Shown piece by piece: positions 723-52,241 of a DNA stretch of 64,000 bases. The stretch is from NCBI GenBank assembly GCA_009840305.1, contig VXNY01000031.1, positions 1 through 64,000 on the forward strand. Reading direction: 5' to 3'. Position 1 is the stretch's first letter; the number at the start of each line of letters is the position of its first letter. Under the pieces are notes generated by a model. It searched no databases, was not told the DNA's origin, and was given only the letters and a program-made list of their open reading frames with translations. The position numbers were made by a program, and so were the translations under genes. The DNA is from Gammaproteobacteria bacterium. GTDB lineage: Bacteria > Pseudomonadota > Gammaproteobacteria > Pseudomonadales > Azotimanducaceae.

Positions 723-1658
723 TTGACCGACAGTAATTCAACCCACAGCGTCGCCTTTGAGCAAACCCGTAAGAAGTTCGGCTCATTGGTCGCACTTGAC
801 CGTCTCAGCTTACAGATACCACGTGGTAGCGTGTACGGATTCATTGGACCCAACGGTGCAGGCAAAACTACCGCGATGCGGATTCTTGTCGGGATTAGTA
901 AACCAACATCAGGCACCATAACGGTGCTCGATGCCGATGACGTCAAAGACGTACGACACCTAATTGGCTACCTTCCTGAAGAAAAAGGCTTGTACAAGCG
1001 TATGCGTGTAATCGACTACATTGTTTACTTTGGTCGTCTCAATGGCATGCGGAAGAGAGATGCAGTTACGAAAGCAAAAGCGCTACTCAGCGAGTTTCAA
1101 CTTACGGACTGGGAAAAGGAAAAGTGTCAAGCACTTTCCAAAGGTATGGGGCAAAAAGTTCAACTCATGGCAACGTTGATTCACGATCCCATACTCATGG
1201 TATTAGACGAACCTTTCAGCGGATTAGATCCCGTGAATGTCGAAGTGGTTCGTTCTATTATCTTGAATAAAGTTAAAGAAAACTCAACGGTCATTCTGTC
1301 TACGCACATTATGGAACAAGCAGAATCTCTTTGCGATGCAGTGGTCTTGATTAACAAGGGTAAAGCTGTGCTCGAAGGGCCAATTGACGAAATTCGCAAA
1401 GGCGATGTTGTATCGGTAGATCACGAAGGTGATGTCTCGGTATTTGATGGATTGCAAGGTGTTGTTTCGGTTAAACAGATCGGTCGTGAAGCAACACTTC
1501 AAGTCGATCCCGAGTGTGACCTGCAAACACTGCTGAAATCCATTTTTGAACGCACTAGGGTGACGCAGTTCAATGCTAACTCTGCGTCATTACATGAGAT
1601 ATTCATACGAGAAGTAGGGGGCTCTGAAGCAACGTCCGAGACAACTGCCGATGCTTGA
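723..1658 (+). CDS. ABC transporter ATP-binding protein, NatA-like with DUF4162-type C-terminus
   Basis: 311 residues from a TTG start. Walker A GPNGAGKTT is at 42-50, the signature LSKGMGQ at 138-144, Walker B ILMVLDEP at 157-164 with catalytic Glu163, and the switch His at 195 (STHIMEQ). The ~90-residue C-terminal tail is the substrate-independent DUF4162-type extension of NatA-like ATPases. The gene ends inside the start of the first permease gene (8-nt overlap), which indicates translational coupling. It is the only ATPase in a locus that holds six NatB-like permeases, so it probably energises all of them as a homodimer. The substrate cannot be read from the sequence. NatA/NatB relatives export sodium, drugs or peptides, but no such assignment is made here. 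Confidence 0.93.
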   Translation: MTDSNSTHSVAFEQTRKKFGSLVALDRLSLQIPRGSVYGFIGPNGAGKTTAMRILVGISKPTSGTITVLDADDVKDVRHLIGYLPEEKGLYKRMRVIDYIVYFGRLNGMRKRDAVTKAKALLSEFQLTDWEKEKCQALSKGMGQKVQLMATLIHDPILMVLDEPFSGLDPVNVEVVRSIILNKVKENSTVILSTHIMEQAESLCDAVVLINKGKAVLEGPIDEIRKGDVVSVDHEGDVSVFDGLQGVVSVKQIGREATLQVDPECDLQTLLKSIFERTRVTQFNANSASLHEIFIREVGGSEATSETTADA

Positions 1659-3231
1659 TCGTTTGTATTCGGTTTGGCTCATTGCACAGCGCGATTGGCT
1701 AGAAGCCACCTCTACCAAAATGTTTTGGTTGGGGGCATTGCTCATGCCTGTGATTACATTGATTTTGGCGATTTTCGGGATGTTTGCGGCGACTTTAATC
1801 GGCACCTCTGTCACGGTTGGTTCCTACTACGTCGTCGATCAAAGTGATGGTCTTGGACTAGAAATTCGAAATGAAATCTTGCGGACGGACGTTGCGAATT
1901 TCCTAAATGTACTCTCCGATCGCGAACCATTACCCCAAGATGAAGAAGTCTTAGCTGAAGTTCATGAAGCAACTCAAACAGATGCAATGCCAGATCTTGT
2001 AAATTCCTTTATGGAATTTCTTGAACATCCCCGAGCAGAATTACCCTCACTCACAAATGGCACCTTAGCTGAAAGATTTAGTGTTTGGTGGCAAAACAAT
2101 AGTAGTCGAATAGTCGAACTCGCACCCACCGTTTCCTTCGCGACATACCAAGAAGTTCTCACTCCGCACCTGACAGAGACAGAGCTAATTCTTATGCTCA
2201 AAGCAGAAAAAATCTTAGGTTATTTCATCATTCCCGAAGGCTTTGTTAATTCCAACGAAAACGCGAAGTTTGTCACTGAAAACATTCTGAAACAAGACCT
2301 TGCAAACTGGTACGAGAGGTTTGCTACCCGAGTAATACAAAACAAGAAATTCGCGGAATCGGATATCAGTCGTGAAACCGCGCTTTGGCTTCTACAACGA
2401 GCATCATTTCAAACGAGCAAAGCCGTAGAACCGTCTCGTGATACCAATGGTTCGAGTCCGAGTGATGTTGGAGATTCGACGAAGGAAGTAACTGTTTGGG
2501 AAACGGTGGGAGAATTCGCTCCAGCAGTGTATCAATACATCCTATGGTTCTTAGTATTCATTGGTGCTACCATATTGATGACCAATACCGTAGAAGAAAA
2601 ATCTACGAAGTTAGTTGAAGTATTGCTGTCGGATCTTGACTCGGTTCAACTAATGGATGGCAAATTGTTAGGTTCTGCACTCACGTTGCTCACAGTCGTC
2701 GGTCTTTGGATCTTTCTAATTTCTATACCCCTCATACTGGGTTCCAACGTCGCTGTATCCTTTTTCCCGCAGGTTGGCGATTTTTTGCAGAGTGGTGCTC
2801 TGAGCTCCATATTTAACCCACTATTTGTCATCAATTTCGTGATTTTCTTCGTACTTGGGTTCGCGTTCTACGGTTATTCGTTGTCTGCTCTCGGATCGGT
2901 TTGTTCGAACATCAGAGAAGCGCAAATGATGGCGACTCCGATAAACTTAGTCGCAATAGTTCCATTGATCCTCATGGTTCCTATCGCGTTAGATAAATCA
3001 GGTACACTACCAACAATAATGTCGTATATACCGCCCTTTACGCCGTTTGTGATGATGAATATAGTAGCTGAAGTAGCTTGGACCCACTATATATTGATTC
3101 TCGTGTGGATGACTGCGTGTACGCTAGGAGTCCGATGGCTGGCCAAGAAGATTTATACCAGAGGAATTTTGCTGGAGAATAAGCCAGCAGGAATCAAGGG
3201 CTTAGTAAGACTGGTTGGTGGTAGTAATTGA
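1651..3231 (+). CDS. ABC-2 type permease, NatB-like, paralogue 1 of 6
   Basis: 526 residues from ATG, overlapping the ATPase gene by 8 nt. Layout: cytoplasmic N-terminus, TM1 about 25-50, an extracytoplasmic domain of about 240 residues (51-290), then five more membrane segments (about 293-313, 340-363, 390-412, 430-446, 477-493). Right after TM2 comes EEKSTKLVEVLL (315-326), the cytoplasmic motif typical of NatB-type ABC-2 permeases that faces the ATPase, followed by LMDGKLLG. The outer domain has two motifs shared with the other five paralogues: YYVVD (59-63) and GYFIIP (190-195). This is probably the transmembrane half of an exporter. The substrate is unknown. Confidence 0.88.
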   Translation: MLDRLYSVWLIAQRDWLEATSTKMFWLGALLMPVITLILAIFGMFAATLIGTSVTVGSYYVVDQSDGLGLEIRNEILRTDVANFLNVLSDREPLPQDEEVLAEVHEATQTDAMPDLVNSFMEFLEHPRAELPSLTNGTLAERFSVWWQNNSSRIVELAPTVSFATYQEVLTPHLTETELILMLKAEKILGYFIIPEGFVNSNENAKFVTENILKQDLANWYERFATRVIQNKKFAESDISRETALWLLQRASFQTSKAVEPSRDTNGSSPSDVGDSTKEVTVWETVGEFAPAVYQYILWFLVFIGATILMTNTVEEKSTKLVEVLLSDLDSVQLMDGKLLGSALTLLTVVGLWIFLISIPLILGSNVAVSFFPQVGDFLQSGALSSIFNPLFVINFVIFFVLGFAFYGYSLSALGSVCSNIREAQMMATPINLVAIVPLILMVPIALDKSGTLPTIMSYIPPFTPFVMMNIVAEVAWTHYILILVWMTACTLGVRWLAKKIYTRGILLENKPAGIKGLVRLVGGSN

Positions 3232-3393
3232 TTGCACAATACTGAGTCGTCGCAGATATCGATTTGTGCAGTTACTAGAGATGTTGAAATACCAACTTGC
3301 GACGAAGACAAGAACTCTAGTTGGAAATCCACCCCCTTAATAGGACATCTAAACAGATTGCCTTCCCCCGGATAGTACCACATATTTGTTCAG

Positions 3394-4929
3394 TTGAATT
3401 CTGCTTTTAGAAACAGTATCCAACATCTTCGTGGCATGTGGCCTGTGGCTCAGCGCGAGATCGTCGCGATGCTGCAAACGAAATCATACTGGCTAGGTTG
3501 TCTTTTCTTTCCAGTGTGTCTATCTGCCTTGTTGTTCATGTTTTGGATCTCCGTTAGCTCGTTAAAGATCTCGTTTGACCATTCCGACATGAATTCCCTC
3601 CCATTGGTTGCCTATGAATATCAGTTCGACCAAATTCGCAGTTTTTTTTGGGGCGATCCGTTGTACTACTACGTCGTCGACCGTAGTGACCATCACATCG
3701 CCGAAGCAGTACGTCTAGCCAAGGTAAAACGAGATTTTGATGTGTGGTATGGCAATTCAAGTCGAGCTCCTAGCATTGAAGAGTTCCAAAAACGCCTGGC
3801 TGATTCTGATTTGGGGCTAGAACACCCACTTGACTACCGAAGGTTTCGAGAGATACAAGAACCAGATGTATCCATCGAGACGTTACATGCGTGGATTGAA
3901 AAGGGCAAAATCGTCGGTTATTTCATCATACCAGAAGATGTTTTAGCTTCTAACCCAAACGCGATGTTTGTTCGGCCGAGTCGAGGCGGCAATGCACACA
4001 CAAGTAAGTTAGACGAACTAGAACAGTGGTTCGAAGACTTGCTTACTCGCGTTCGACAAGACAAGTTACTCGAAACCGACGACGTTGAGATTGAATTGCG
4101 GCAACCACTACAAGCATCGTTGCAAGTGGCCATCGATCGAGTCGCCGTCAGTCCAAGCAGCGATGCAGGAAGACCTGCTGATGCAAAAGTTCTTCCCTCG
4201 TTGCAGCTTCCTATTGCCAATTGGGTGAAATCGGCGACTATTCCTTTTATTTATCTGTTCATTCTAATTTCTGGAACAACAGCAAACGTTATGGTTACGA
4301 GCACTATTGAAGAGAAGTCGAACCGTGTGGCTGAAATGCTCGCTGCGAACCTGAACCCAAGCCAAGTCTTGGATGGTAAGCTTCTCGGGAACTGTGTTGT
4401 TATGTTAATTGGAATAGGCTGTGGATGCGTTCTCATAGGACCACCACTTGTACTGTTGCTTGATAACTTCTCTGGACAGGAGATGAGCATAACCGCAACG
4501 ATACTGCACGTGAGTAAATTGTCAACTTGGTTGATCTTCCTCATTTTTGGAGTCGCTTTTTTTGGGTACATTCAAACAGCTTTAGGCTCATTGTGCGATG
4601 ATGTAAAGGAGTTGGTCACCGTCGTTTATCCGATATCGATAATTCAATTGTTTTGTGTGATTCCTTCGATTGTGTACGTGTTGTTCAATCCCGATGGTCG
4701 TGTAACGCAAGTAATAAGCTTCATACCCTTTTTGACGCCAAGCGTCATGGTGAGTCGCTTAGCCTCTCTACCAACTTGGCCAGTGTACCTAGCAATTGTG
4801 CTGTTGATGGTGCTTAGCATTGTTGCGATACGTAAGTTTTCAACGTCATTATTCGCGCATGGAATGGTGTCGGAGCGAGCACCGCGGGGCATGAGAATGG
4901 TTTTTCGACTCGCGCGTAGACCTGTTTAG
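3394..4929 (+). CDS. ABC-2 type permease, NatB-like, paralogue 2 of 6
   Basis: 511 residues from a TTG start, chosen because it places the WPVAQRE stretch at the same distance from TM1 as the equivalent WLIAQRD in paralogue 1. TM1 lies at about 32-55. The outer domain has YYVVD (92-96) and GYFIIP (175-180). The coupling motif EEKSNRVAEML starts at 306 and is followed by VLDGKLLG. The C-terminus (SFIPFLTPSVM, then a final TM and HGMVSERAPRG) aligns with paralogues 1, 3 and 6. It lies 162 nt downstream of paralogue 1 with no obvious terminator between them. No ATPase accompanies it, so it presumably shares the one at 723-1658. Confidence 0.86.
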   Translation: MNSAFRNSIQHLRGMWPVAQREIVAMLQTKSYWLGCLFFPVCLSALLFMFWISVSSLKISFDHSDMNSLPLVAYEYQFDQIRSFFWGDPLYYYVVDRSDHHIAEAVRLAKVKRDFDVWYGNSSRAPSIEEFQKRLADSDLGLEHPLDYRRFREIQEPDVSIETLHAWIEKGKIVGYFIIPEDVLASNPNAMFVRPSRGGNAHTSKLDELEQWFEDLLTRVRQDKLLETDDVEIELRQPLQASLQVAIDRVAVSPSSDAGRPADAKVLPSLQLPIANWVKSATIPFIYLFILISGTTANVMVTSTIEEKSNRVAEMLAANLNPSQVLDGKLLGNCVVMLIGIGCGCVLIGPPLVLLLDNFSGQEMSITATILHVSKLSTWLIFLIFGVAFFGYIQTALGSLCDDVKELVTVVYPISIIQLFCVIPSIVYVLFNPDGRVTQVISFIPFLTPSVMVSRLASLPTWPVYLAIVLLMVLSIVAIRKFSTSLFAHGMVSERAPRGMRMVFRLARRPV

Positions 4930-4998
4930 TTATTAACTTGAGTAATTGTTCCCTCGGAAAACAAATGAACAGTATAAACCTAGCAAACTAAAGCTTAG

Positions 4999-6675
4999 AT
5001 GAGAAGGGATCGCCTAAAAACTGTTTGGGTCGTGATGATGAACGAATGGTCAATGACCACGTTGAACCCAAGTTTCTGGATAGTTTCTTGCGCTACACCA
5101 ACCATACTCTTCGCGATGTATTTTCTCTTCCAATGGTTTCTCGGGGAGGATCCTAGGGAAGCATGGTTTAAAGAGGAGACCGTCAAGAACTGGGAGTTCT
5201 TCCTAGAAGACGAGTGGCTAGACCAGAGCGTTCGATCACCAAGAGTGTTGAGTTATGGGGTACTCGATCCGAGTGAGTCATTTTCCGCGGATGTTCGAAG
5301 AGAAATAGTCAACAATGATTGCTATCTATTTCTCAATTCGATTCTCGATGTGAATACGGAAGACTTTGAGGCCTTCACTGATGTACAAAGCGATGACCAC
5401 GAACCGTTAGTGCAAGATTTAGCCACGGTGCGGCAGCGATTCGCTTCGATGTCGACAAAAGGTCTCGTTGACCAATTACTGGCCAGAGTCGAACCAACCG
5501 AAGAATTATCAGATGTTGTTGAACTCTCATCTTTCCGAGAACGCGTCAAAAGCTGGGTAATACAGAATCAACACGAAACTATCGTTTCGATACCAAAGCT
5601 ATCATCCAATCTCTTTCGAGACATGACTCCATTAGCAGGTACGGTTTCTACCGAAAGTCTCGAATCCATGCTTTCGCGTAATGAAATCATCGGCTACTTT
5701 GTCTTCCCCGAGAGTATTGATGCTGAAATGGACCATCTGCACTTCGTGACACACGTGAGAACTCCTCGAAGTGAATTCCTTGATCTCTTAAACTGGTATC
5801 GTAGTGTCGCAACAGATGTGCTTAGAAAACGCCGCTATGAGACTGAGAACATTGACACCAACACACAAACTGCGTTGTTGCAACGGGTCAACGTTGTTCC
5901 CACCAACATTGAAATCCCAACAACAAAGTCTCAAATACAGACAGAAAGTTTTGAACGAATTCTCTACATCTTGCTGGCCGGTCTGATGTATTTAGTGTTT
6001 TTAGGAGGATCTGTGCGTCTGGTCTCAAATGTGGTAGACGAAAAGTCGAACAAGTTAGCAGACAACCTGTTAGCAAATCTAAGTCCTTCACATTTGTTGG
6101 ACGGTAAACTGTGGGGAACGGCTATGATTTCGCTAACAGTTATGGGACTCTGGGTAATCTTGGTCCCAATTCTTGCACTTGTAACAGGTCGTTTAGATTT
6201 CAATGTGAATCTCGACATTTTCGGCGTGATATTACAGCCAACCGTCGTATTTAATTTCATTTTCTTCCTACTGCTAGCCTATGCTTTGTACGGTTACATA
6301 TTTGTCGGATTGGCATCGTTGTTCAGTAGAGTGAGTAATGCGATTAACATTTTTTTAGGTGTAGGATTGGGTTTAGGGTTTTTCTTTGTGATCCCATCCC
6401 TCGTGACGATGGCGTTTCACCCGTTTGTTTGGCTACAAAATCTGCTGAGTTTCATACCAGTAATGTCTCCGTTTGTCATGGTTGCTCGATCGGGGACCCT
6501 GCCGGGATGGGGAATGTATTGCACTATCGTATGTGTGTTGTTAGTGTGCATATTTGCTTCTCGAGCATTGTCAAACCTCATGTTCAAGCGAGGAATATCG
6601 AGTGAAGTTAGAGTCAAACCGTTGAAGTTCCGAGCCCAAAAGCTCTCCGCTAAGCCACCATTTTGGCGTTCGTGA
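4999..6675 (+). CDS. ABC-2 type permease, NatB-like, paralogue 3 of 6
   Basis: 558 residues from ATG. TM1 is at about 26-47. The outer domain is the longest of the first three, with YGVLD at 86-90 (a variant of the shared YYVVD) and GYFVFP at 232-237. The coupling motif is DEKSNKLADNLL from 347, followed by LLDGKLWG. Five C-terminal membrane segments end with SFIPVMSPFVM and KRGISSEVR. It lies 69 nt after paralogue 2, in the same direction. Divergence from its neighbours is high although the architecture is kept, which suggests old tandem duplication rather than a recent copy. Confidence 0.86.
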   Translation: MRRDRLKTVWVVMMNEWSMTTLNPSFWIVSCATPTILFAMYFLFQWFLGEDPREAWFKEETVKNWEFFLEDEWLDQSVRSPRVLSYGVLDPSESFSADVRREIVNNDCYLFLNSILDVNTEDFEAFTDVQSDDHEPLVQDLATVRQRFASMSTKGLVDQLLARVEPTEELSDVVELSSFRERVKSWVIQNQHETIVSIPKLSSNLFRDMTPLAGTVSTESLESMLSRNEIIGYFVFPESIDAEMDHLHFVTHVRTPRSEFLDLLNWYRSVATDVLRKRRYETENIDTNTQTALLQRVNVVPTNIEIPTTKSQIQTESFERILYILLAGLMYLVFLGGSVRLVSNVVDEKSNKLADNLLANLSPSHLLDGKLWGTAMISLTVMGLWVILVPILALVTGRLDFNVNLDIFGVILQPTVVFNFIFFLLLAYALYGYIFVGLASLFSRVSNAINIFLGVGLGLGFFFVIPSLVTMAFHPFVWLQNLLSFIPVMSPFVMVARSGTLPGWGMYCTIVCVLLVCIFASRALSNLMFKRGISSEVRVKPLKFRAQKLSAKPPFWRS

Positions 6676-6822
6676 AAGGACGACCCATGCGGAATTAACC
6701 AGACGAACGCGAGGACGTGTATTGCTACGAAATAAATTCGAGCGAGAGGGCAAAACTTACGTACACGCGGCGGTTGCTACTCTGACTGCAAATTCGCTGC
6801 GATTAGTCGTGGTGGCTCACGC

Positions 6823-7323
6823 TCACTGTTCTTCTTCTACAGTTTCTGATTGATCTGTTTCTGGGGCATCAGAGGAAACTGATGACTCTCCATCCTGCGA
6901 TGCCGAATCTTCATCGTTCTCCGCAGATTGAAGATCGGATTGCGAAAGCGGTGTAAACTCTACCAATTTGAGTTGCGCTCGACGGACTCTTTGATTCTTC
7001 GGTTTACTACTAGTGCCATAGTAAGTAGAAAGGTAATCGAGAACCTTACCCTCATTGTCACCTAAGTCCCACAAATTTTCTTGAGTTTGCATACGCTTAA
7101 TTGATTTAGACCAATTCTCGCGATCGAGTTGTTGCTGTGTTAACAGTCGTTCCGAATGACATACACTGCAAGAGGCTTTGATGAGCTTCCAGTTTCCGTC
7201 GGCGTCGATGCGTAAACCAGACTTTGGATCTATCTCTACGGCTTCTTCGTTTGCTAGACAGAAAACCGCTAGCCCCAAGAATAAGACGCTAGCTAACGTA
7301 TATCGCGATGCGATGGCACGCAT
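6823..7323 (-). CDS. Monohaem cytochrome c, probable electron acceptor of the sulfite dehydrogenase
   Basis: 166 residues with an N-terminal signal peptide (residues 1 to about 24). One haem-binding motif, CSVCH, lies at 52-56, and a candidate distal Met sits in KRMQTQENLW. The C-terminal ~40 residues are acidic and low in complexity (rich in Ser, Glu, Asp). The gene overlaps the 3' end of the molybdenum sulfite dehydrogenase by 35 nt on the same strand, as expected for a SorB- or SoxD-type partner that takes electrons from the molybdoenzyme in the periplasm. It is much shorter than classical dihaem SoxD, so a SorB-like role fits better. Confidence 0.85.
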   Translation of the reverse strand: MRAIASRYTLASVLFLGLAVFCLANEEAVEIDPKSGLRIDADGNWKLIKASCSVCHSERLLTQQQLDRENWSKSIKRMQTQENLWDLGDNEGKVLDYLSTYYGTSSKPKNQRVRRAQLKLVEFTPLSQSDLQSAENDEDSASQDGESSVSSDAPETDQSETVEEEQ

Positions 7324-8593
7324 TGTTCAAATATCCTTTTGGATTCCAATTCGGAAGCACCATTGGTTGAGAATGACCCTGATCGTCTTCAGCGCGAGCC
7401 CACACTTCGTAATACCCTGTAGTGGGAAACTTTATGCTGTGATCCCAATGTTGCCATGCTAGGCGATTTACTGCAGGTTTCAGATTTGCCGCAGACCAAG
7501 TCTGACCAAAATCAATAGACACGTTCAAACTCCGAACTGAATTGTCTCCAGCCCAAGCGTGCCCCCGAACTTTAAGAGTGTCGTTTGTACCAATCTGAAC
7601 TCCAGTTTTTGGGAAGGTGATCAATGACTTGACTGGCATCGCATGAATAATGCGCATGTCCTCGTCGGCTACAGTCGTACCAGGCGCAACGGGTGTTTTA
7701 GGTACGCGATAAGATGGACTTTCCATTTTGGGTCCATCGTGAACTTTATTTCGAATGGTGACGCGTCTTAACCATTTCCCCGAAACAGAACCGGGCCAAC
7801 CCCCAAAAACCAGTCTTAACGGATGACCATTCATCGGATGTAGATCGTCTCCATTCATACCCCAAACAATCATCGACTCGTCGTCCAGCGCTTTGTCGAG
7901 AGGAACTCCACGGGAGATAGTTACCCGTTCAGCGTCTCCACTCATGTGGGAATCTGCACCATAGAATGCTACGTAGACTGCATCCGGTTTGTAACCCACA
8001 TCTTTTAAAACATCTTTAAGACGTACGCCGTTCCATAAGGGACATCCTACAGCACCAAGAGACCATTGATTGCCCGAAACCGGAGGATCAAATTCCGCGC
8101 GCCCGTTTCCTCCACATTCTAGCACAAGTTGTCGACTAATATTTTCAAAGCGCTCTTTTAAATTAGTAATCGTGTATGTCTTGTAAGCTCCAACTGATTC
8201 TCCTTCAAAAGCCAATGACCACGTACTTGAGTTCACATTCTCGGGAGGCTCACCGTAGTTTCGAATAAACAAACGATTGGCTGGGGTTACGTCATCGTTT
8301 AGCAAATGGGGTGGAGTTTCAGCGTTTACAGGTCGGTCATTGAGCAAAATCAACCCATCCTTACCTTCAATTTGGAAAGCAGCATCTGAATTGGAATGGG
8401 ACGCGGGTATTAGCCCTTGCGGTGCCGCGTGCGCGAATGGAACTCTAGCACCCACAAACGCACTGAAGGCCGCTAATCCTGAAACAAATCCTCGACGGGT
8501 AACATGATTTGTGCGACGACCCCATGCCTCCCAATCCGCTCTTTCTGGATCCTGCGCAAACATTTCGTGTATACCACGTTCTCTCTTCTTCAT
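7289..8593 (-). CDS. Periplasmic sulfite dehydrogenase, molybdopterin subunit (SoxC/SorA-like)
   Basis: 434 residues. A twin-arginine signal (TRRGFVSG, Arg33-Arg34, then a hydrophobic run ending about 56) implies folded export with the cofactor in place. The sulfite-oxidase fold follows: the Moco-binding domain with the molybdenum-ligand Cys160 in LECGGNGRAEF, PVSGNQWSLGAVGCPLW, and MNGHPLRLVFGGWPG, then the C-terminal dimerisation domain. The sequence is more like SoxC than plant or animal sulfite oxidase. The family oxidises sulfite, or in SoxCD the sulfane sulfur on SoxY. No soxYZ, soxXA or soxB is visible here, so direct sulfite oxidation is the safer call. It sits in reverse orientation inside the permease cluster. 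Confidence 0.87.
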   Translation of the reverse strand: MKKRERGIHEMFAQDPERADWEAWGRRTNHVTRRGFVSGLAAFSAFVGARVPFAHAAPQGLIPASHSNSDAAFQIEGKDGLILLNDRPVNAETPPHLLNDDVTPANRLFIRNYGEPPENVNSSTWSLAFEGESVGAYKTYTITNLKERFENISRQLVLECGGNGRAEFDPPVSGNQWSLGAVGCPLWNGVRLKDVLKDVGYKPDAVYVAFYGADSHMSGDAERVTISRGVPLDKALDDESMIVWGMNGDDLHPMNGHPLRLVFGGWPGSVSGKWLRRVTIRNKVHDGPKMESPSYRVPKTPVAPGTTVADEDMRIIHAMPVKSLITFPKTGVQIGTNDTLKVRGHAWAGDNSVRSLNVSIDFGQTWSAANLKPAVNRLAWQHWDHSIKFPTTGYYEVWARAEDDQGHSQPMVLPNWNPKGYLNNACHRIAIYVS

Positions 8594-9072
8594 CCTGATA
8601 TATCTATAAGTCTTACTATCTGTTATGTGTTACAGGCACTGAAAGGCACCTGAATCCTTGGTACAAGCATTTAAACAAATCATTCTAGGTAACGTCTTCG
8701 AAACACGTTCGAGTTTCGTCATTCGATGCAACCGGTGCAAATCGGACACGAATACTCACGAACCGGAGTAGCAAATAGGTGATCTGCTTGGGATAGTTTC
8801 ATTCAGTAGAGTGCCTATTGCTAGTTGTATCCGCCGCAATCAGGGAAAATAAGAATCTGAATCAATCTCGGGACAGCTAACTCTAGTGTCAATGCAAATT
8901 CTGATTTTTAGGACTGGATTTCTGAATAACGCGGACAGAGTTCACCTTCTGACCAATTTGTAAAAAATATATACCAAATTGAATTCGTTGAGCGCGAAAT
9001 TGCTCGAGCAATGGCAGAGGTACCGAATTTACTGAGTTTCATCCTCTAAGGTGTTGCGGGATTTATTCACTT
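8594..9072. other. 479-nt intergenic region between sulfite dehydrogenase and permease 4
   Basis: Divergent promoter region: the sulfite dehydrogenase gene leaves to the left and permease 4 to the right. No credible coding frame was seen. Near the permease end there is an inverted repeat CAATTTG/CAAATTG (8954-8960 and 8975-8981) around an AT-rich core, and a perfect palindrome ATTGCTCGAGCAAT (8999-9012). Either could be an operator, but neither matches a site I recognise. Confidence 0.5.
8954..9012. promoter_or_regulatory. Possible operator region upstream of permease 4
   Basis: Two symmetric elements lie 60-120 nt before the permease 4 start: CAATTTG and CAAATTG separated by 14 AT-rich bases, and the perfect 14-nt palindrome ATTGCTCGAGCAAT. 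A 14-nt perfect palindrome is expected a few times by chance in 64 kb, so only the location makes it interesting. Confidence 0.25.
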
Positions 9073-10665
9073 ATGATCGCTTACAGAAAAACTGTTTGGT
9101 CCATAGTTCGCCAAGAATGGGTAACTTTCTTACGCAGCAGACAATTCTTAGTGTTTGGCTTGCTGTCTCCACTCGCACTTGCTGCAATTTTGTGGATATT
9201 CATCTTTAGCAATGGAGGTGTCACTTCAGACGGGATAGATCGTTGGAAGTACTTTCAAAGTGAGGTAAAGCGATTTGGGGAAGACGTTAATGGAACGTAC
9301 GCCTTCGAGAAGTCAGACGACCGCATCCTCTTCTATGTTGTAGATCAAGCCAATCTAGATATTGAATTTACCTTGCGCGAAGAGCTATTGAGACGCGATC
9401 TTACAAGGATGATTGACTACTTGAAACAAACACCTCTAGAGGAATGGAAGTGGTTCCAAGGTTCAGACGATCGAATGTCCAGCGCGGAACAGTTGTGGAC
9501 GGAGATCTCCTACGGAACTGTTACAGCAGAGACTTTAATTTCGACGTACGAACTTCAGCACGATCCAACATTTTCGTCGAGGTTAACTACTACGAACGAA
9601 GAAAGATCTTGGTTCGTTGATGGATGGAATGAAAACGTTGAGGACATTGCGCGGTCGATTCCTACCATGAGTTTCTCTCGAGTTGTTCATGTATTCACCG
9701 CAAATGAAGCTTGGGTCAAATCTGTGTGGGTACCAGCCTTTATTGAAATTCCAGAGAACTTCCTTGAGACACACCAAGCAAATTGTTTTCTTGCACAGGG
9801 GTGGTTTACCTTTGTTCGGGATTATCCGCTAAAGGAACTTCGTAAGCCGTTGCAAAGTTGGTTTGAAGACCTGATCAGTTCCCAACTAGACGACTACCAT
9901 GAATCAACCGATCTTTCCAATGTCGATCAATTGCCGCGCGTTAAACCTGCAGTCCATCTCGAACTTCAATCAAACGACTCTCTAGACGGTGTGAAAAGAC
10001 AATACGAGAGAACTGAATCGCTATCGACCTTCATTTTCTCGTTTATCTATCTACTTTGTATTGGTTGTGTGTGGGGTTTGCTATATTTTGATCCAAATCT
10101 CAAACTCAATGAGGACGCTACTGTGAATGAACCTTTATATACCATCATGGATGGGCGCGTTCTAGGGACAATGCTAAAGATTTTTTCGGTCCTTGGTATT
10201 TGGTTCGTACTGCTGTTTCTCCCTATTTGGTTTCTTTTAGGAACTGTCCCGGCCTTCGGTGCTGGCGCACTAACAAAATTTTTTAATCCGCTTGACAGAA
10301 TACACTACTTGATATTCTTCATCATCGGGCTGATGACGCATTGTTACGTATTTCACATACTGAGCTTACTTCGTCAATTCTTGAGGTCCATTACACTCAT
10401 CCTAATTGCTGTAAATTTCACATTGATGTCAACAACTTCAATGTTTGCTTCTAGCTCATCGGCCTATGACTTTTTATGTTTCATGCCTCTTATGGGAATT
10501 TCAATTATGGTGACAAAGACTTTTGCATATCCAGAGCCGCTGAGTTATATATTCATCGTCTTGATTGCGATAGGGTTTTTGTTTGGTTGCAGATTCTTCG
10601 TTAAATCTGAAGAAAGATTTCAATCAAAGAAAAGCGAGCTTAAATATATTTTCCACCCTAGCTAA
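9073..10665 (+). CDS. ABC-2 type permease-like protein, divergent paralogue 4 of 6
   Basis: 530 residues from ATG. The overall plan matches the other five: TM1 at about 25-46, a large outer domain with YVVD at 88-91, and a C-terminal membrane half starting at about 318. Two landmarks are lost. The shared GYFI(I/L)P motif is reduced to FIEIP (223-227). The cytoplasmic EEKS coupling motif after TM2 is replaced by an unrelated stretch (341-359), although MDGRVLG (359-365) remains. The last helix also lacks the conserved (R/H)G(I/M)xxE tail. The frame is intact, so this looks like a specialised or non-coupling subunit rather than a pseudogene. It begins the second half of the cluster, after the sulfite dehydrogenase interruption. 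Confidence 0.8.
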   Translation: MIAYRKTVWSIVRQEWVTFLRSRQFLVFGLLSPLALAAILWIFIFSNGGVTSDGIDRWKYFQSEVKRFGEDVNGTYAFEKSDDRILFYVVDQANLDIEFTLREELLRRDLTRMIDYLKQTPLEEWKWFQGSDDRMSSAEQLWTEISYGTVTAETLISTYELQHDPTFSSRLTTTNEERSWFVDGWNENVEDIARSIPTMSFSRVVHVFTANEAWVKSVWVPAFIEIPENFLETHQANCFLAQGWFTFVRDYPLKELRKPLQSWFEDLISSQLDDYHESTDLSNVDQLPRVKPAVHLELQSNDSLDGVKRQYERTESLSTFIFSFIYLLCIGCVWGLLYFDPNLKLNEDATVNEPLYTIMDGRVLGTMLKIFSVLGIWFVLLFLPIWFLLGTVPAFGAGALTKFFNPLDRIHYLIFFIIGLMTHCYVFHILSLLRQFLRSITLILIAVNFTLMSTTSMFASSSSAYDFLCFMPLMGISIMVTKTFAYPEPLSYIFIVLIAIGFLFGCRFFVKSEERFQSKKSELKYIFHPS

Positions 10666-10801
10666 AACCCAGAGTAGCACAGCTGTACAGAGTCAAGATG
10701 TCGTCACCGCCAAGAGAATTAATCAGCTAGAACTACTAGCAGAATTTGGAATAGACTAATGTTAAAAGAACCGAGCTAATGTTCGCAAAAGTAGTCTGGC
10801 G

Positions 10802-12463
10802 GTGAAAATGGTTGCTCCCATCGCCATCCGAGAATGGCGAACATCCGTATTGACGAAAGTTTTTGTCGGACTTGGAATGGGCTATCCACTCTTGCTGTCG
10901 CTTACACTTTGGGTGGGAGTGTTGTTTCTACTATTGGTCGATTTGATCGGATCTGTTTCCGATGCACCCGAATTAGAGCGCGAAATCGAAAAATTCCTTG
11001 GAGCTAATACGCCATCAAGACATACAACATACTATGTGGTAGACAAATCAAACACGCAGTTTGGAGACTTGATTCGCGAGGAAATCTTTCGAAGAGACAT
11101 CGCTTCTGCCGTAGAGTTCATTAGCAGTAAGGACTACACAGAGTTTGCGGCGGTCCGACCCTTGATAGACTCTTTCTGGAGCTCAGATATCCGTACAAGT
11201 ATCGAGAGTCTAAAGGAAAAAATTCAAGCTGAGGAAGACACAGTCGATACACGAAAGGTTCTCGTTTCCATACTCATCGATACCATGAAATCTCTAATGA
11301 GAGGGGACTCGGAACGAGATGTCGACAGAGATGCCCTCGACTTCGCGTACTGGTGGAGGGCGAATAGGCATTATTTGAGTCGATCCTTACCAGAATTCTC
11401 CAATCATTTTTTTGTAGAGTTGACCAAGGAAGACTGGTCTTTGGACGAACTCAATGATTTGTTAGCTTCCAAACGGCTTGACGGATACTTCATTCTACCG
11501 AATGGATTCCCTCAAACCAATTCATCCATACAGTTTGTATCGAGTGAAATTATGGTTCCCGAGGAAAGAAGATCTGCTTTTCTTTTGACGAATTGGTACG
11601 AATCAATAGCAACTGAAATACTTACGAATCAAGTGACAGGTCTGACGGTAACTGAGAAAATAAATCGTGCTCTACCAGTCATCGAAGTCGGGCGCGTCAC
11701 CAATGAATATGACAGGGATGGTTCGTACGTTATTAAAGCGGGTTTTCAGGCGGACGTTTACCCTCGTTACCTAAATGTTTGGATCAGGGCGATATGGACC
11801 TCTTTGTTCTGGGTCGCTATGTTTTACTGTGTCTACGCAATGTCATTTAACCTCACTGAAGAGAAACAGAATAGAGTCTCCGAGGTATTGCTCTCCAACA
11901 TGTCTCCTTTAAATTTGATGGACGGAAAAGTTCTCGGCAATGTCCTCGTCATTCTCACTGTTTTCGGTTCCTGGACGGTTATATTGGGTGCGCCTTTGAT
12001 TTGGATGATCGCGCTTGCACCAGAACTTGGGGCGCACGCGTTGCGTGAACTCTTTAACCCTCTTTATGTTTTGAACTGGTTTGTTTCGTTGCTGCTTGGG
12101 CTGACCTTGCTAGGGTACATTGCGACCGCTCTAGGTTCCCTGTACGCAACTGATAGAGTGTTGGGTTTGGTAATTACGTTACTGATGTTGTTACTCGGTA
12201 TCAGTTTTTTGACATCAGTAAACCCTGACAGTGTGATAGGTTCTATAGTTAAATTTATTCCACTGTTCACTCCCTTTGCTCTGGTGAGCCAGACGACTTT
12301 CCTACCGACGCTTCCTGTATATCTTTGTTTACTGGTTCTAGTGATCACATTTTTGTGGACGATTCGATTCTTGTTGGTACCGGTTTTCGCAAGAGGAGTG
12401 TTATTAGACGCGGTACCAAACAAATTTAGTAAATTGATAAAGATATTGTTCACTCAGGATTGA
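10802..12463 (+). CDS. ABC-2 type permease, NatB-like, paralogue 5 of 6
   Basis: 553 residues from GTG; an ATG two codons later (10808) is an equally good start. TM1 is at about 22-50. The outer domain has YYVVD at 77-81 and GYFILP at 228-233. The coupling motif EEKQNRVSEVLL begins at 353 and is followed by LMDGKVLG. The C-terminus, KFIPLFTPFAL through ARGVLLD, follows the family pattern. It lies 136 nt after paralogue 4, and its stop codon overlaps the start of paralogue 6, so these two are almost certainly co-translated and may form a heterodimer. Confidence 0.86.
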   Translation: MKMVAPIAIREWRTSVLTKVFVGLGMGYPLLLSLTLWVGVLFLLLVDLIGSVSDAPELEREIEKFLGANTPSRHTTYYVVDKSNTQFGDLIREEIFRRDIASAVEFISSKDYTEFAAVRPLIDSFWSSDIRTSIESLKEKIQAEEDTVDTRKVLVSILIDTMKSLMRGDSERDVDRDALDFAYWWRANRHYLSRSLPEFSNHFFVELTKEDWSLDELNDLLASKRLDGYFILPNGFPQTNSSIQFVSSEIMVPEERRSAFLLTNWYESIATEILTNQVTGLTVTEKINRALPVIEVGRVTNEYDRDGSYVIKAGFQADVYPRYLNVWIRAIWTSLFWVAMFYCVYAMSFNLTEEKQNRVSEVLLSNMSPLNLMDGKVLGNVLVILTVFGSWTVILGAPLIWMIALAPELGAHALRELFNPLYVLNWFVSLLLGLTLLGYIATALGSLYATDRVLGLVITLLMLLLGISFLTSVNPDSVIGSIVKFIPLFTPFALVSQTTFLPTLPVYLCLLVLVITFLWTIRFLLVPVFARGVLLDAVPNKFSKLIKILFTQD

Positions 12464-14181
12464 TGTCTCCCGTTCCGACAAAATCGAGATTGCGCCTGAC
12501 TTTGCGCTCGCTGTTGGTCGTCACAGTTGTAGAGTGGAAACGGTTCGTGTTTACTGGGAGCTTTGTCTTCCTCGTAATTGTTCCGGCTCTTGTAATATGG
12601 CTATATCCATCAGCACACGCACTAGTAACCAATAGCATTGAAAATGTAAGAGAGGATCAAGACCCTTTTCCAACATCATCGCGCGAATTCAAGGGAGCAG
12701 AGAATGAAAGACTCATGCTGTCTCACGAACCGAACGTAATCAAATATGCCGTTGTTGATAGCAGCTCTTGGGTGCATCAAAAGATTAAAGAAAAGCTCCT
12801 GTTCAAAGATCTCAGCATCGTTCTGCCAGCTTTAATCAAGCTGGACGAAGCTCAGTTTGCGCAATGGGCTCAACACGCGGTTGAAGAAGCCCACGGCGTT
12901 GATTCGACCATAAATCGGTCGGCCTTGTTAAAGAATCTGATAAAGTTCCATCAAACATTGGTAGACAAGGGTATCAGTGATGACAACATCACAGACTTAG
13001 CTCAACAAATACTGCAAAGTAAAGATAGCAACATCACGGGGGACGACCCCAAAGAATCAGTAGTTGTGTTGTGGACGCTCCTGCCAAAGAGCATCATCGA
13101 GTTGATACCATTGGTATCGTTCGCTTCTTTCGAGGAAATCGAAGTCGAGGCTAGTTCTACGGTTAATGCCCAATCCATGCTTCTCTCGGGAGAAATTGCC
13201 GGTTACTTTGTTACCCACGCAGACTTGTCTGGTAGCTATGAAGGTATGCAGCTCGTAACTCTAAACAGGGCTTCGAATCCAATCACTGCCGATCTCAAGA
13301 TCTTTTATCAAACACAACTGTCGGATGTACTTCGAGAAAACAATCTTTTGACTAATAGAGTGTCCATCGACTCAGAGATCCCACGACTAGAAGTTCAATG
13401 GAGCGAAATAAAAACTATTGGATTGGACGCTACTTCAATCCGGGCACAGAGTCAATGGTGGAGTTCTCCGTCCGGTCTAGCCTCATTTTTAATAAAGCAC
13501 TCACCGGTGATACTGAGTCTCGTTGCGTTAACGTCTGTAATGATCAGTACCTTGGTACTCGCTGTAAATACCATCGACGAACGATCAAGTAAACTTGCGG
13601 AAGTATTGCTGGCAAATATTGACTCTAAACTGCTATTTGATGCAAAAGTGTGGGGAGGAATGCTTGGTATCCTTACTGTTGTCGGTTGTTGGGTGAGTAT
13701 TCGAGTCGTGTATCTTTTGTTCGTTTCCCCTGACACACCCCTTGAAGTGCTACCAAATCTGACGCTAATCCATCTTTTGCATGTGATGACTTTTTTATTC
13801 TTCGGTTTCGCTTTCTACGGATATTTCGTACAAGCATTTGGTGCGGCCTGTAATAATCAAGTCGACCTAGCTGTGCTCATTATTCCTGTGGCTTTTGTTC
13901 AGGGTATCGCTGTTTGTTCCTTGTGGTATCTCATCGAAAACCCCAACACTTTATTCGCATCGATAATTAGTTTTGTTCCACCTCTCACTCCTTTTGTGAT
14001 GATAGCACGTATAGGTCACTTGCCTTCTTGGCCGCTGTACTTACCGATCTTAGTTCTCATGTCAGTGAGTGTGCTTGGCGCACGTCAAATTGGAAATCGC
14101 TTCTTTTCTCGCGCCTTCCTAATGGAGCAAAGACCACGGGGCGTCAAGAGATTGATTCGACTAGCCCGACATCAAGAATGA
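12463..14181 (+). CDS. ABC-2 type permease, NatB-like, paralogue 6 of 6
   Basis: 572 residues from the ATG at 12463, which shares one base with the TGA of paralogue 5 and has AGGA just upstream; a TTG at 12460 is possible but lies too close to that site. TM1 is at about 31-55, YAVVD at about 95-99, and the second outer motif is weakened to GYFVTH (247-252). The coupling motif is present as DERSSKLAEVLL (from about 372). The C-terminal half ends SFVPPLTPFVM and FLMEQRPRG, closest to paralogue 2. This is the last gene of the permease series; 143 nt follow before the next gene. Confidence 0.86.
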   Translation: MSPVPTKSRLRLTLRSLLVVTVVEWKRFVFTGSFVFLVIVPALVIWLYPSAHALVTNSIENVREDQDPFPTSSREFKGAENERLMLSHEPNVIKYAVVDSSSWVHQKIKEKLLFKDLSIVLPALIKLDEAQFAQWAQHAVEEAHGVDSTINRSALLKNLIKFHQTLVDKGISDDNITDLAQQILQSKDSNITGDDPKESVVVLWTLLPKSIIELIPLVSFASFEEIEVEASSTVNAQSMLLSGEIAGYFVTHADLSGSYEGMQLVTLNRASNPITADLKIFYQTQLSDVLRENNLLTNRVSIDSEIPRLEVQWSEIKTIGLDATSIRAQSQWWSSPSGLASFLIKHSPVILSLVALTSVMISTLVLAVNTIDERSSKLAEVLLANIDSKLLFDAKVWGGMLGILTVVGCWVSIRVVYLLFVSPDTPLEVLPNLTLIHLLHVMTFLFFGFAFYGYFVQAFGAACNNQVDLAVLIIPVAFVQGIAVCSLWYLIENPNTLFASIISFVPPLTPFVMIARIGHLPSWPLYLPILVLMSVSVLGARQIGNRFFSRAFLMEQRPRGVKRLIRLARHQE

Positions 14182-51269: not shown

Positions 51270-51881
51270 CTACCCCCGCGATTTCAGTTGCTGCTGGGCA
51301 TGTTTTTCGACTCCCTCTGGCATAGTGTGTATAAGTCCTTTTAGAGACTCGGGACTCGACTCAGCCCACACGACAATGATTGATTTCCAGAGTTCTTCAC
51401 GGTCGAGTTTGTTCTTGAGCTGAGTGACCGCCGCGAATGCTCCAATGGGATCGGTTTGCACCCACGCACCTGAGACTGTCCATAGAAACGCTTGTAAAAT
51501 ATCGTCCTCAAGTTCTTCCGACGCTACGTTGAACAGTTGCTGAAATCCACCCAATTCTTCTGCCATTTTGTGGGTGATGCTAGCGAGTACGACCGTTTGT
51601 AATGTTGGATCTATTTGAAGTTCTTTGAGCTCATTAAGCGCTCCTAAACCATCTCTCTCAATCTTCGTTTCAATAGAGTTGGTCAACTCGAAAATCGAAT
51701 CGAGACGAACGTGATCGTAGTTTAATAGGTCTTTCCAAGTGAAGGAATCGTGAGATTCAACTAGAACCAAGGTGCGATTCGAGACGGAAAAATGAAGAAA
51801 GACCGCAATCATTAGACCGACAAAGATTCCGATTGCGTAATGCACAGCTATGTGCAACCGTGGTTCATGCAGAGTATTCAT
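51270..51881 (-). CDS. Membrane-anchored hypothetical protein with W-x-x-x-(D/S)P repeats
   Basis: 203 residues from the ATG at 51881, which has GAGAGAGGA upstream; an ATG at 51938 is in frame but less well placed. One membrane helix (about 10-30, HYAIGIFVGLMIAVFLHF) anchors a soluble helical domain. Two helical repeats share a pattern: SGAWVQTDPIGAFAAV and VVWAESSPESLKGL. Similar W-(A/V)-x-x-DP-x-(A/S) repeats occur in long helical-repeat proteins of other phyla. Here the protein stops after the second repeat, so it may be a truncated or compact relative. Function unknown. Confidence 0.6.
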   Translation of the reverse strand: MNTLHEPRLHIAVHYAIGIFVGLMIAVFLHFSVSNRTLVLVESHDSFTWKDLLNYDHVRLDSIFELTNSIETKIERDGLGALNELKELQIDPTLQTVVLASITHKMAEELGGFQQLFNVASEELEDDILQAFLWTVSGAWVQTDPIGAFAAVTQLKNKLDREELWKSIIVVWAESSPESLKGLIHTMPEGVEKHAQQQLKSRG

Positions 51882-52241
51882 AGCGGGTATCCTCTCTCTC
51901 CTTTCGTTCTTTGTGTTTAGAGGTTTGGTGTCTAACACTAACGAGAATCACATTGTAGCAATCTTTTTGTGATAGCTAGTGTTTCCTCACATCTGCCAGC
52001 AATCCATACAGCTGAAGATTACGATCCGTAGCAACTGCGCAACGTTCTAATGACTACGGTTGTTGCATATTCTCTAGTAGTGTGTGAACATTGATGCATA
52101 ACCCGTCCAAGATATCGTTTTTGTGTTCGATCTAAATTCAATCTACTAAAATTCATAGTCCGCAGTCGCTCTAGACATCCATCGCCGATACAAGTGATAT
52201 CAAAATAATCATTATCTCTGTCTACTTCCATTTCAACCGTA
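51882..52241. other. 360-nt spacer upstream of mfd
   Basis: Divergent region between the anchored hypothetical gene and mfd. All three forward frames are closed just before mfd (TAA at 52206, TGA at 52243, TAG at 52247), which fixes where mfd translation can begin. A 91-codon minus-strand frame (52019-52294) overlaps the mfd 5' end and was not accepted as a gene. Confidence 0.5.

Follow-up and report, generated by a model that had tools for sequence, protein, structure and literature searches.

Type V exporters of known structure are built from two membrane halves. Among vitamin and metal importers, the ECF group II transporters combine a shared energizing module with exchangeable partners. 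In Bacillus subtilis, YhaQP and LnrLMN are described as type V/VI hybrid exporters; LnrLMN, which confers linearmycin resistance, joins two different permeases to one ATPase (LnrL2MN), and NatAB has the composition NatA2B2, with the B. subtilis NatA described without a regulatory domain (PMC11466899). The multitask ATPase MsmX/MsmK has been proposed to energize several sets of sugar-importer permeases that have no ATPase of their own (PMC7658222). In the titles and abstract openings retrieved from the literature, no array of ABC-2 exporter permeases with one ATPase was found.

Here we describe a gammaproteobacterial locus in which one ABC ATPase gene is accompanied by six permease genes (P1–P6). 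It lies in a 64,000-nucleotide stretch of DNA (the window) from a 2.6-Mb genome that is 95.6% complete (G000). The initial annotation had recognized one ATPase and six permeases between positions 723 and 14,181, and this reading holds: all of these ORFs are open and on the plus strand, and all six permeases are intact (Table 1). It had also placed them in tandem; six are indeed present, but the row is interrupted between P3 and P4 by antisense SorB-like and SorA-like genes. The gene order runs from the end of murF through the ATPase, P1–P3, the SorB-like and SorA-like genes, P4–P6 and a sigma-70 region 4-like gene to moaA. The SorA-like and SorB-like genes are probably not part of the transporter. 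SorAB-like genes stand antisense after P3 in all six home-locus arrays, and the interruption is kept across species.

Table 1 Genes of the permease array and its neighbours in the window
Feature	Coordinates	Strand	Remarks
ABC ATPase, 311 aa, C-terminal DrrA1-3_C	723..1658	+	ORF open; Pfam
P1, ancestral-type permease	1651..3231	+	ABC2_membrane_3; 8-base overlap with ATPase gene
P2, first of P2–P3 pair	3394..4929	+	ORF open; ABC2_membrane_3
P3, second of P2–P3 pair	4999..6675	+	ORF open; ABC2_membrane_3
SorB-like cytochrome c subunit	6823..7323	-	Inside array, antisense
SorA-like sulfite dehydrogenase (molybdopterin)	7289..8593	-	Inside array, antisense
P4, degenerate permease	9073..10665	+	ORF open; GYF, coupling motif and Pfam match gone
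P5, first of P5–P6 pair	10802..12463	+	ORF open; ABC2_membrane_3
P6, second of P5–P6 pair	12460..14181	+	ORF open; ABC2_membrane_3
Sigma-70 region 4-like HTH protein, 441 aa	14325..15650	+	

The ATPase comprises the Pfam domains ABC_tran and DrrA1-3_C, the latter at residues 219–298 and above the Pfam cut-off. ABC2_membrane_3 was found in five of the six permeases (P1, P2, P3, P5 and P6), which places the system among type V ABC exporters (ABC-2) by permease domain (ABC2_membrane) and membrane fold. P2–P6 are 21–29% identical to P1. When the own genome was searched with P1 and 11 of 11 candidates were scored, six places emerged, each belonging to the array. The six had been thought to share one plan, from which P4 departs: it has FYVVD for YxVVD, lacks GYF and EEKS while keeping DGR, and had no Pfam match at E 0.001. 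Elsewhere in the array, P5 carries EEKQ, and P6 carries DERS and DAK.

By published descriptions, the array resembles YhaQP and LnrLMN more than NatAB. As in those two systems, the ATPase has a C-terminal regulatory domain, and the permeases combine a large outer domain with a short type V membrane part; in contrast, YhaQP and LnrLMN are described with a single permease, or a single pair, for each ATPase, whereas here there are up to eight permeases of several types, one of them degenerate. In those systems the outer domain is described as a five-stranded sheet flanked by helices; in the P1 model, the region from TM1 to TM2 contains six short strands along with many helices. NatAB, an Na+ exporter, likewise has an ABC-2 permease with an outer domain (ABC2_membrane_3) adjoining its ATPase. 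However, its single permease acts as a homodimer, against six permeases in the window, and the presence of DrrA1-3_C, set against a NatA described without a regulatory domain, argues against the label NatB-like that the permeases had first received (PMC11466899). With MsmX/MsmK the array shares the combination of one ATPase and several permease sets, here as a genomic pattern only; those systems are described as type I importers that use binding proteins and are encoded at scattered loci, whereas ABC-2 exporter-type permeases stand here in one row, and no binding-protein gene was found among the listed ORFs of positions 1–20200. ECF group II systems resemble the arrangement proposed here in having an energizing module common to exchangeable partners, but they are importers of unrelated fold. 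NosFY differs in that NosY (7qba; 275 residues), when aligned, shows nothing comparable to the outer domain, and in having a single permease type. A PDB sequence search with the P1-type profile gave no match, and Foldseek returned nothing with E below 0.001, the best hit being ABCA4 at 0.001.

The array has arisen by expansion, within a single lineage, from an exporter with one ATPase and one permease. With at most seven candidates scored per genome, the permease profile matched 40 of 206 family genomes: 31 of these gave a single match, 2 gave a pair of matches covering complementary parts on different contigs, and 7, which belong to a single genus, gave more than two. In a class sample, 3 of 369 genomes matched, the own genome included; at most three candidates per genome were scored there, so this search cannot count arrays. 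In a GTDB scan of 322 relatives, the best 80 gave 79 loci, several on short contigs; 74 have one permease ORF, with an ATPase match in 70 of them, and the other five are array members. Within the genus, G003, G007 and G014 have the order murF, ATPase and one permease, which is the ancestral state and corresponds in gene count to the single-permease NatAB arrangement. The seven array genomes hold 3–8 permease genes: three in G005, five in G008, six in G000, seven in G009 (on three contigs) and eight each in G002, G011 and G013, broken and edge-cut copies counted; breaks in metagenome-assembled contigs limit these counts. G005 holds only P1, P2 and P3, and G008 lacks P4–P6; in both, SorA adjoins the sigma-like gene with no P4–P6 between, and G000 itself lacks P2′–P3′. 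Three copies are broken in G013 (including P2′, P3′ and P6), and one, split over two frames, in G002; in G011 the home P1 is split by a stop, the C48 copy is short and a first copy is cut by the contig edge. Decaying copies, named at the outset as a finding that would speak against an array of working permeases, thus occur in relatives, but the permeases of the window are intact.

A single close ATPase accompanies this expansion in most array genomes. Among 18 genus genomes, the own included, ten (G000, G002, G003, G005, G007, G008, G009, G011, G013 and G014) have an ATPase at least 65% identical to that of the window, and G004 and G012 have distant ones (43 and 49%). The remark that only one ATPase is visible extends to relatives: six of the seven array genomes (G000, G002, G005, G008, G009 and G013) have one close ATPase and G011 has two, and no relative was found to carry an ATPase gene for each permease. 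The array-type ATPases form one clade, which includes the G011 C48 copy (77%) and leaves the G011 home copy outside. Several features are peculiar to G011: its home permease has an in-frame stop, its two ATPases lie at L042:3162-5184 and L041:3228-5768, the C48 ATPase adjoins a short permease of 358 residues, and a separate three-pair array is found on contig C102. The ratio of ATPase to P1 divergence is 0.36–0.70 in 15 array pairs and 0.57–0.92 in 3 single-permease pairs, with 0.77–1.08 in 15 distant, saturated pairs; the extra constraint expected on a shared ATPase is thus seen weakly.

The permeases fall into recurring pairs. In a tree of 53 permeases, P2-types and P3-types form clades of 13 members each (support 100/99 and 100/100), and a P3-type directly follows a P2-type on the same strand in 13 of 13 cases from seven genomes: one pair in G000 and G005, two in G009, G008, G002 and G013, and three in G011. 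LnrLMN has two different permeases as an obligate pair with one ATPase, and the gene pairing may point to a comparable arrangement. P2 and P3 tree distances correlate at 0.954, a value reached in none of 20,000 permutations; for the 10 intact pairs alone the correlation is 0.953 (reached in 4 of 20,000), and 2 of 96 arrangements of the within-genome pairings, including the observed one, fit as well. Adjacent genes that duplicate together would give mirrored trees even if their products did not pair, so these trees mark the unit in which duplication took place. The retention of both members, and the breakage of both in P2′–P3′ of G013, speak for a joint function. In four of four genomes (G000, G002, G009 and G013), P5 is accompanied by P6; the two are cut or broken in the last, where P6 is broken and P5, with no visible break, is cut by contig ends. 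The initial annotation had taken the overlapping stop and start of P5 and P6 as a hint of heterodimers. The overlap is real (TGATG, also in G009), with the ATG at 12463 the likely start of P6, but the gene pairing is stronger for P2–P3: the heterodimer idea is best supported there, with P5–P6 second.

Conservation extends to the stretch through which a permease would meet the ATPase. In the P1 model (pLDDT 88.3), a short helix at residues 321–328 is predicted between TM2 (290–318) and TM3 (331–362), which we take to be the position of the coupling helix of type V exporters. Each of 14 P1-types examined has EEK...GK unchanged. A strict form of the coupling motif is present in 12 of 13 P2-types, 12 of 13 P3-types, 10 of 17 P1-types, 3 of 4 P5 (the miss being a contig-end cut) and 3 of 3 P6, but in none of 3 P4; the P2 and P3 misses retain EEK and TEK with small changes, and the distant P1-types fail the strict spacing only. 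Windows conserved as well as this stretch number 2 of 532 in P3-types, 6 of 500 in P1-types and 22 of 485 in P2-types.

Purifying selection acts on all six permeases of the window. Across pairs beginning with G000 or G005, some with high or saturated synonymous distances, dN/dS is 0.03–0.07 for the ATPase, 0.09–0.14 for P1, 0.15–0.25 for P2 and 0.17–0.28 for P3; one genome pair each gives 0.24 for P4, 0.18 for P5 and 0.25 for P6. By this measure P2–P6 evolve faster than P1. With limits drawn by eye, the outer domains diverge faster than the membrane parts in P1 (identity 73–81% versus 91–97% for the rest), P2 (52–73 versus 73–89), P3 (61–69 versus 73–85), P5 (76.5 versus 86.7) and P6 (68.5 versus 78.6).

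P4 alone among the six lacks a slower-evolving membrane part, its outer domain and remainder being 82.5% and 72.4% identical to those of G013 and 32.5% and 34.8% identical to those of G002. P4 is seen in G000, G002 and G013, in each beside P5–P6, and EEK is gone from all three orthologues; in G009, the stretches next to P5 and following SorA show no P4 as far as the contigs reach. The P4 model retains a short helix, at low confidence, at the place of the coupling helix. Judging from its sequence, P4 is probably a half that is uncoupled or has an accessory role.

A role of the sigma-70 region 4-like gene as regulator of the array was considered, and a specific link was rejected because its relatives also lie near the locus in single-permease genomes (about 3–4 kb away in G003 and G007, about 16 kb in G014); the gene is an old neighbour. 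Weaker relatives occur in G006, G010, G015, G016 and G017, where there is no P1-type permease match. The protein is conserved near the locus in the clade and has a weak PADLOC match to MzaA. PADLOC gave no permease matches and broad ATPase matches only, and a defence system was set aside, as was a mobile origin: the plasmid collection gave nothing for P3, and the phage collection nothing for P1. A promoter and terminator scan found fewer sites than in shuffled sequences (12 versus 22.0 and 7 versus 12.8) and was uninformative.

We also observed a hugely expanded family of proteins of about 600 residues with an apparent N-terminal membrane anchor, as judged by eye. The query (L135:9993-11870, from G009) had 61 matches at E 0.001 in the 2.6-Mb genome of the window (G000); at E 1e-10, there were 21–92 in G002, G003, G005, G007, G008, G009, G011, G013 and G014, 0–3 in G001, G004, G006, G010, G012, G015, G016 and G017, and none in G018. 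The ten genomes rich in this family are the ten with a close ATPase, a co-occurrence that one clade may explain. Six members had no Pfam match, four flank a P2–P3 pair of G009, and a short relative lies in the window (51270-51938, minus strand).

On balance, there is about an even chance that the permease genes were duplicated, partly as two-gene cassettes, that the ATPase remained single, and that one motor serves several permease dimers. The starting point would have been a one-ATPase, one-permease type V exporter similar to YhaQP or LnrLMN. An ATPase homodimer would dock in turn on the ancestral P1 homodimer and on P2:P3 and P5:P6 heterodimers, contacting each by way of the conserved coupling helix that links TM2 to TM3, and a single motor would drive exporters with different outer domains. 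We infer the sharing of the ATPase, the heterodimers and the role of P4 from gene content, pairing and conservation. Counting against this reading are the P4 not seen in G009, the second ATPase of G011, and the G013 pair in which P6 but not visibly P5 is broken. A more elaborate reading, possible but less probable, is a combinatorial exporter in which interchangeable dimers use the shared ATPase, two-gene cassettes are gained and lost as units, outer domains diversify towards different substrates or enemies and a coupling-dead P4 acts as a regulatory or adaptor subunit. Of the three options in the initial annotation, exchangeable halves or an expanded export family fit best, since P1 and the ATPase persist across genomes in which entire modules appear or are missing.

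The variable copy number, the broken copies in G013, G011 and G002, and the faster evolution of P2–P6 are also what would be seen if P1 alone worked and the extra permeases arose, drifted and were lost with little function; we consider this unlikely, given six open frames in the window, dN/dS of 0.15–0.28 for P2–P6, far under 1, a conserved coupling stretch in P2-types and P3-types, and P2–P3 pairs that remain neighbours in all 13 cases. More improbable still is that other ATPases of the genome drive P2–P6. The genome has 35 ATPase-similar places at E 0.001 or better, the gene itself included, with neighbourhoods partly examined, but the next best is 31% identical and P2–P6 share their gene row with the ATPase at 723-1658. 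Five of the six next-best ATPases were examined, and each lies in a gene group of its own; read from their ORFs, four directly adjoin a candidate permease and the fifth belongs to a group resembling lptC–lptA–lptB (the sixth, C27:555307, is within a 1623-residue open frame). One large hetero-oligomeric channel of all the permeases and the ATPase would suit the single ATPase, the close gene row and the divergent permeases, yet it is hardly likely: it departs from the two-half architecture noted above, and the sets vary among close relatives, the three permeases of G005 and the five of G008 contradicting the fixed six-subunit form of the multi-subunit channel first suggested. Loss of EEK from every P4 orthologue, together with a P4 membrane part that is not slower, could mean that P2–P6 no longer transport and serve as ATPase-independent membrane receptors or scaffolds, with P4 as the end point; retention of the motif in P2, P3, P5 and P6 types makes this, too, very improbable.

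The relatives are gammaproteobacterial metagenome-assembled genomes, for example SB0666_bin_18, SB0661_bin_12, SB0677_bin_6, CO36404bin_7 and Plut_88873. A study of Great Barrier Reef sponges includes a Nitrospira named 'SB0677'; the SB isolates among the relatives presumably share that origin, and this uncultured lineage probably has at least some members living in marine sponges. Given that the lineage is seemingly host-associated, the outer domains may track the chemistry of the host or of competitors. Sponges are described as rich in bioactive compounds (PMC7157528), which, with linearmycin resistance by LnrLMN, leads us to guess, by analogy only, at a protective role, in which membrane-active compounds would be exported or otherwise kept from doing harm. 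If one ATPase does serve several ABC-2 exporter dimers, exporters would diversify without new motors, and the 13 P2–P3 pairs of seven genomes would offer a natural series on the co-evolution of heterodimer partners and NBD-coupling helices.
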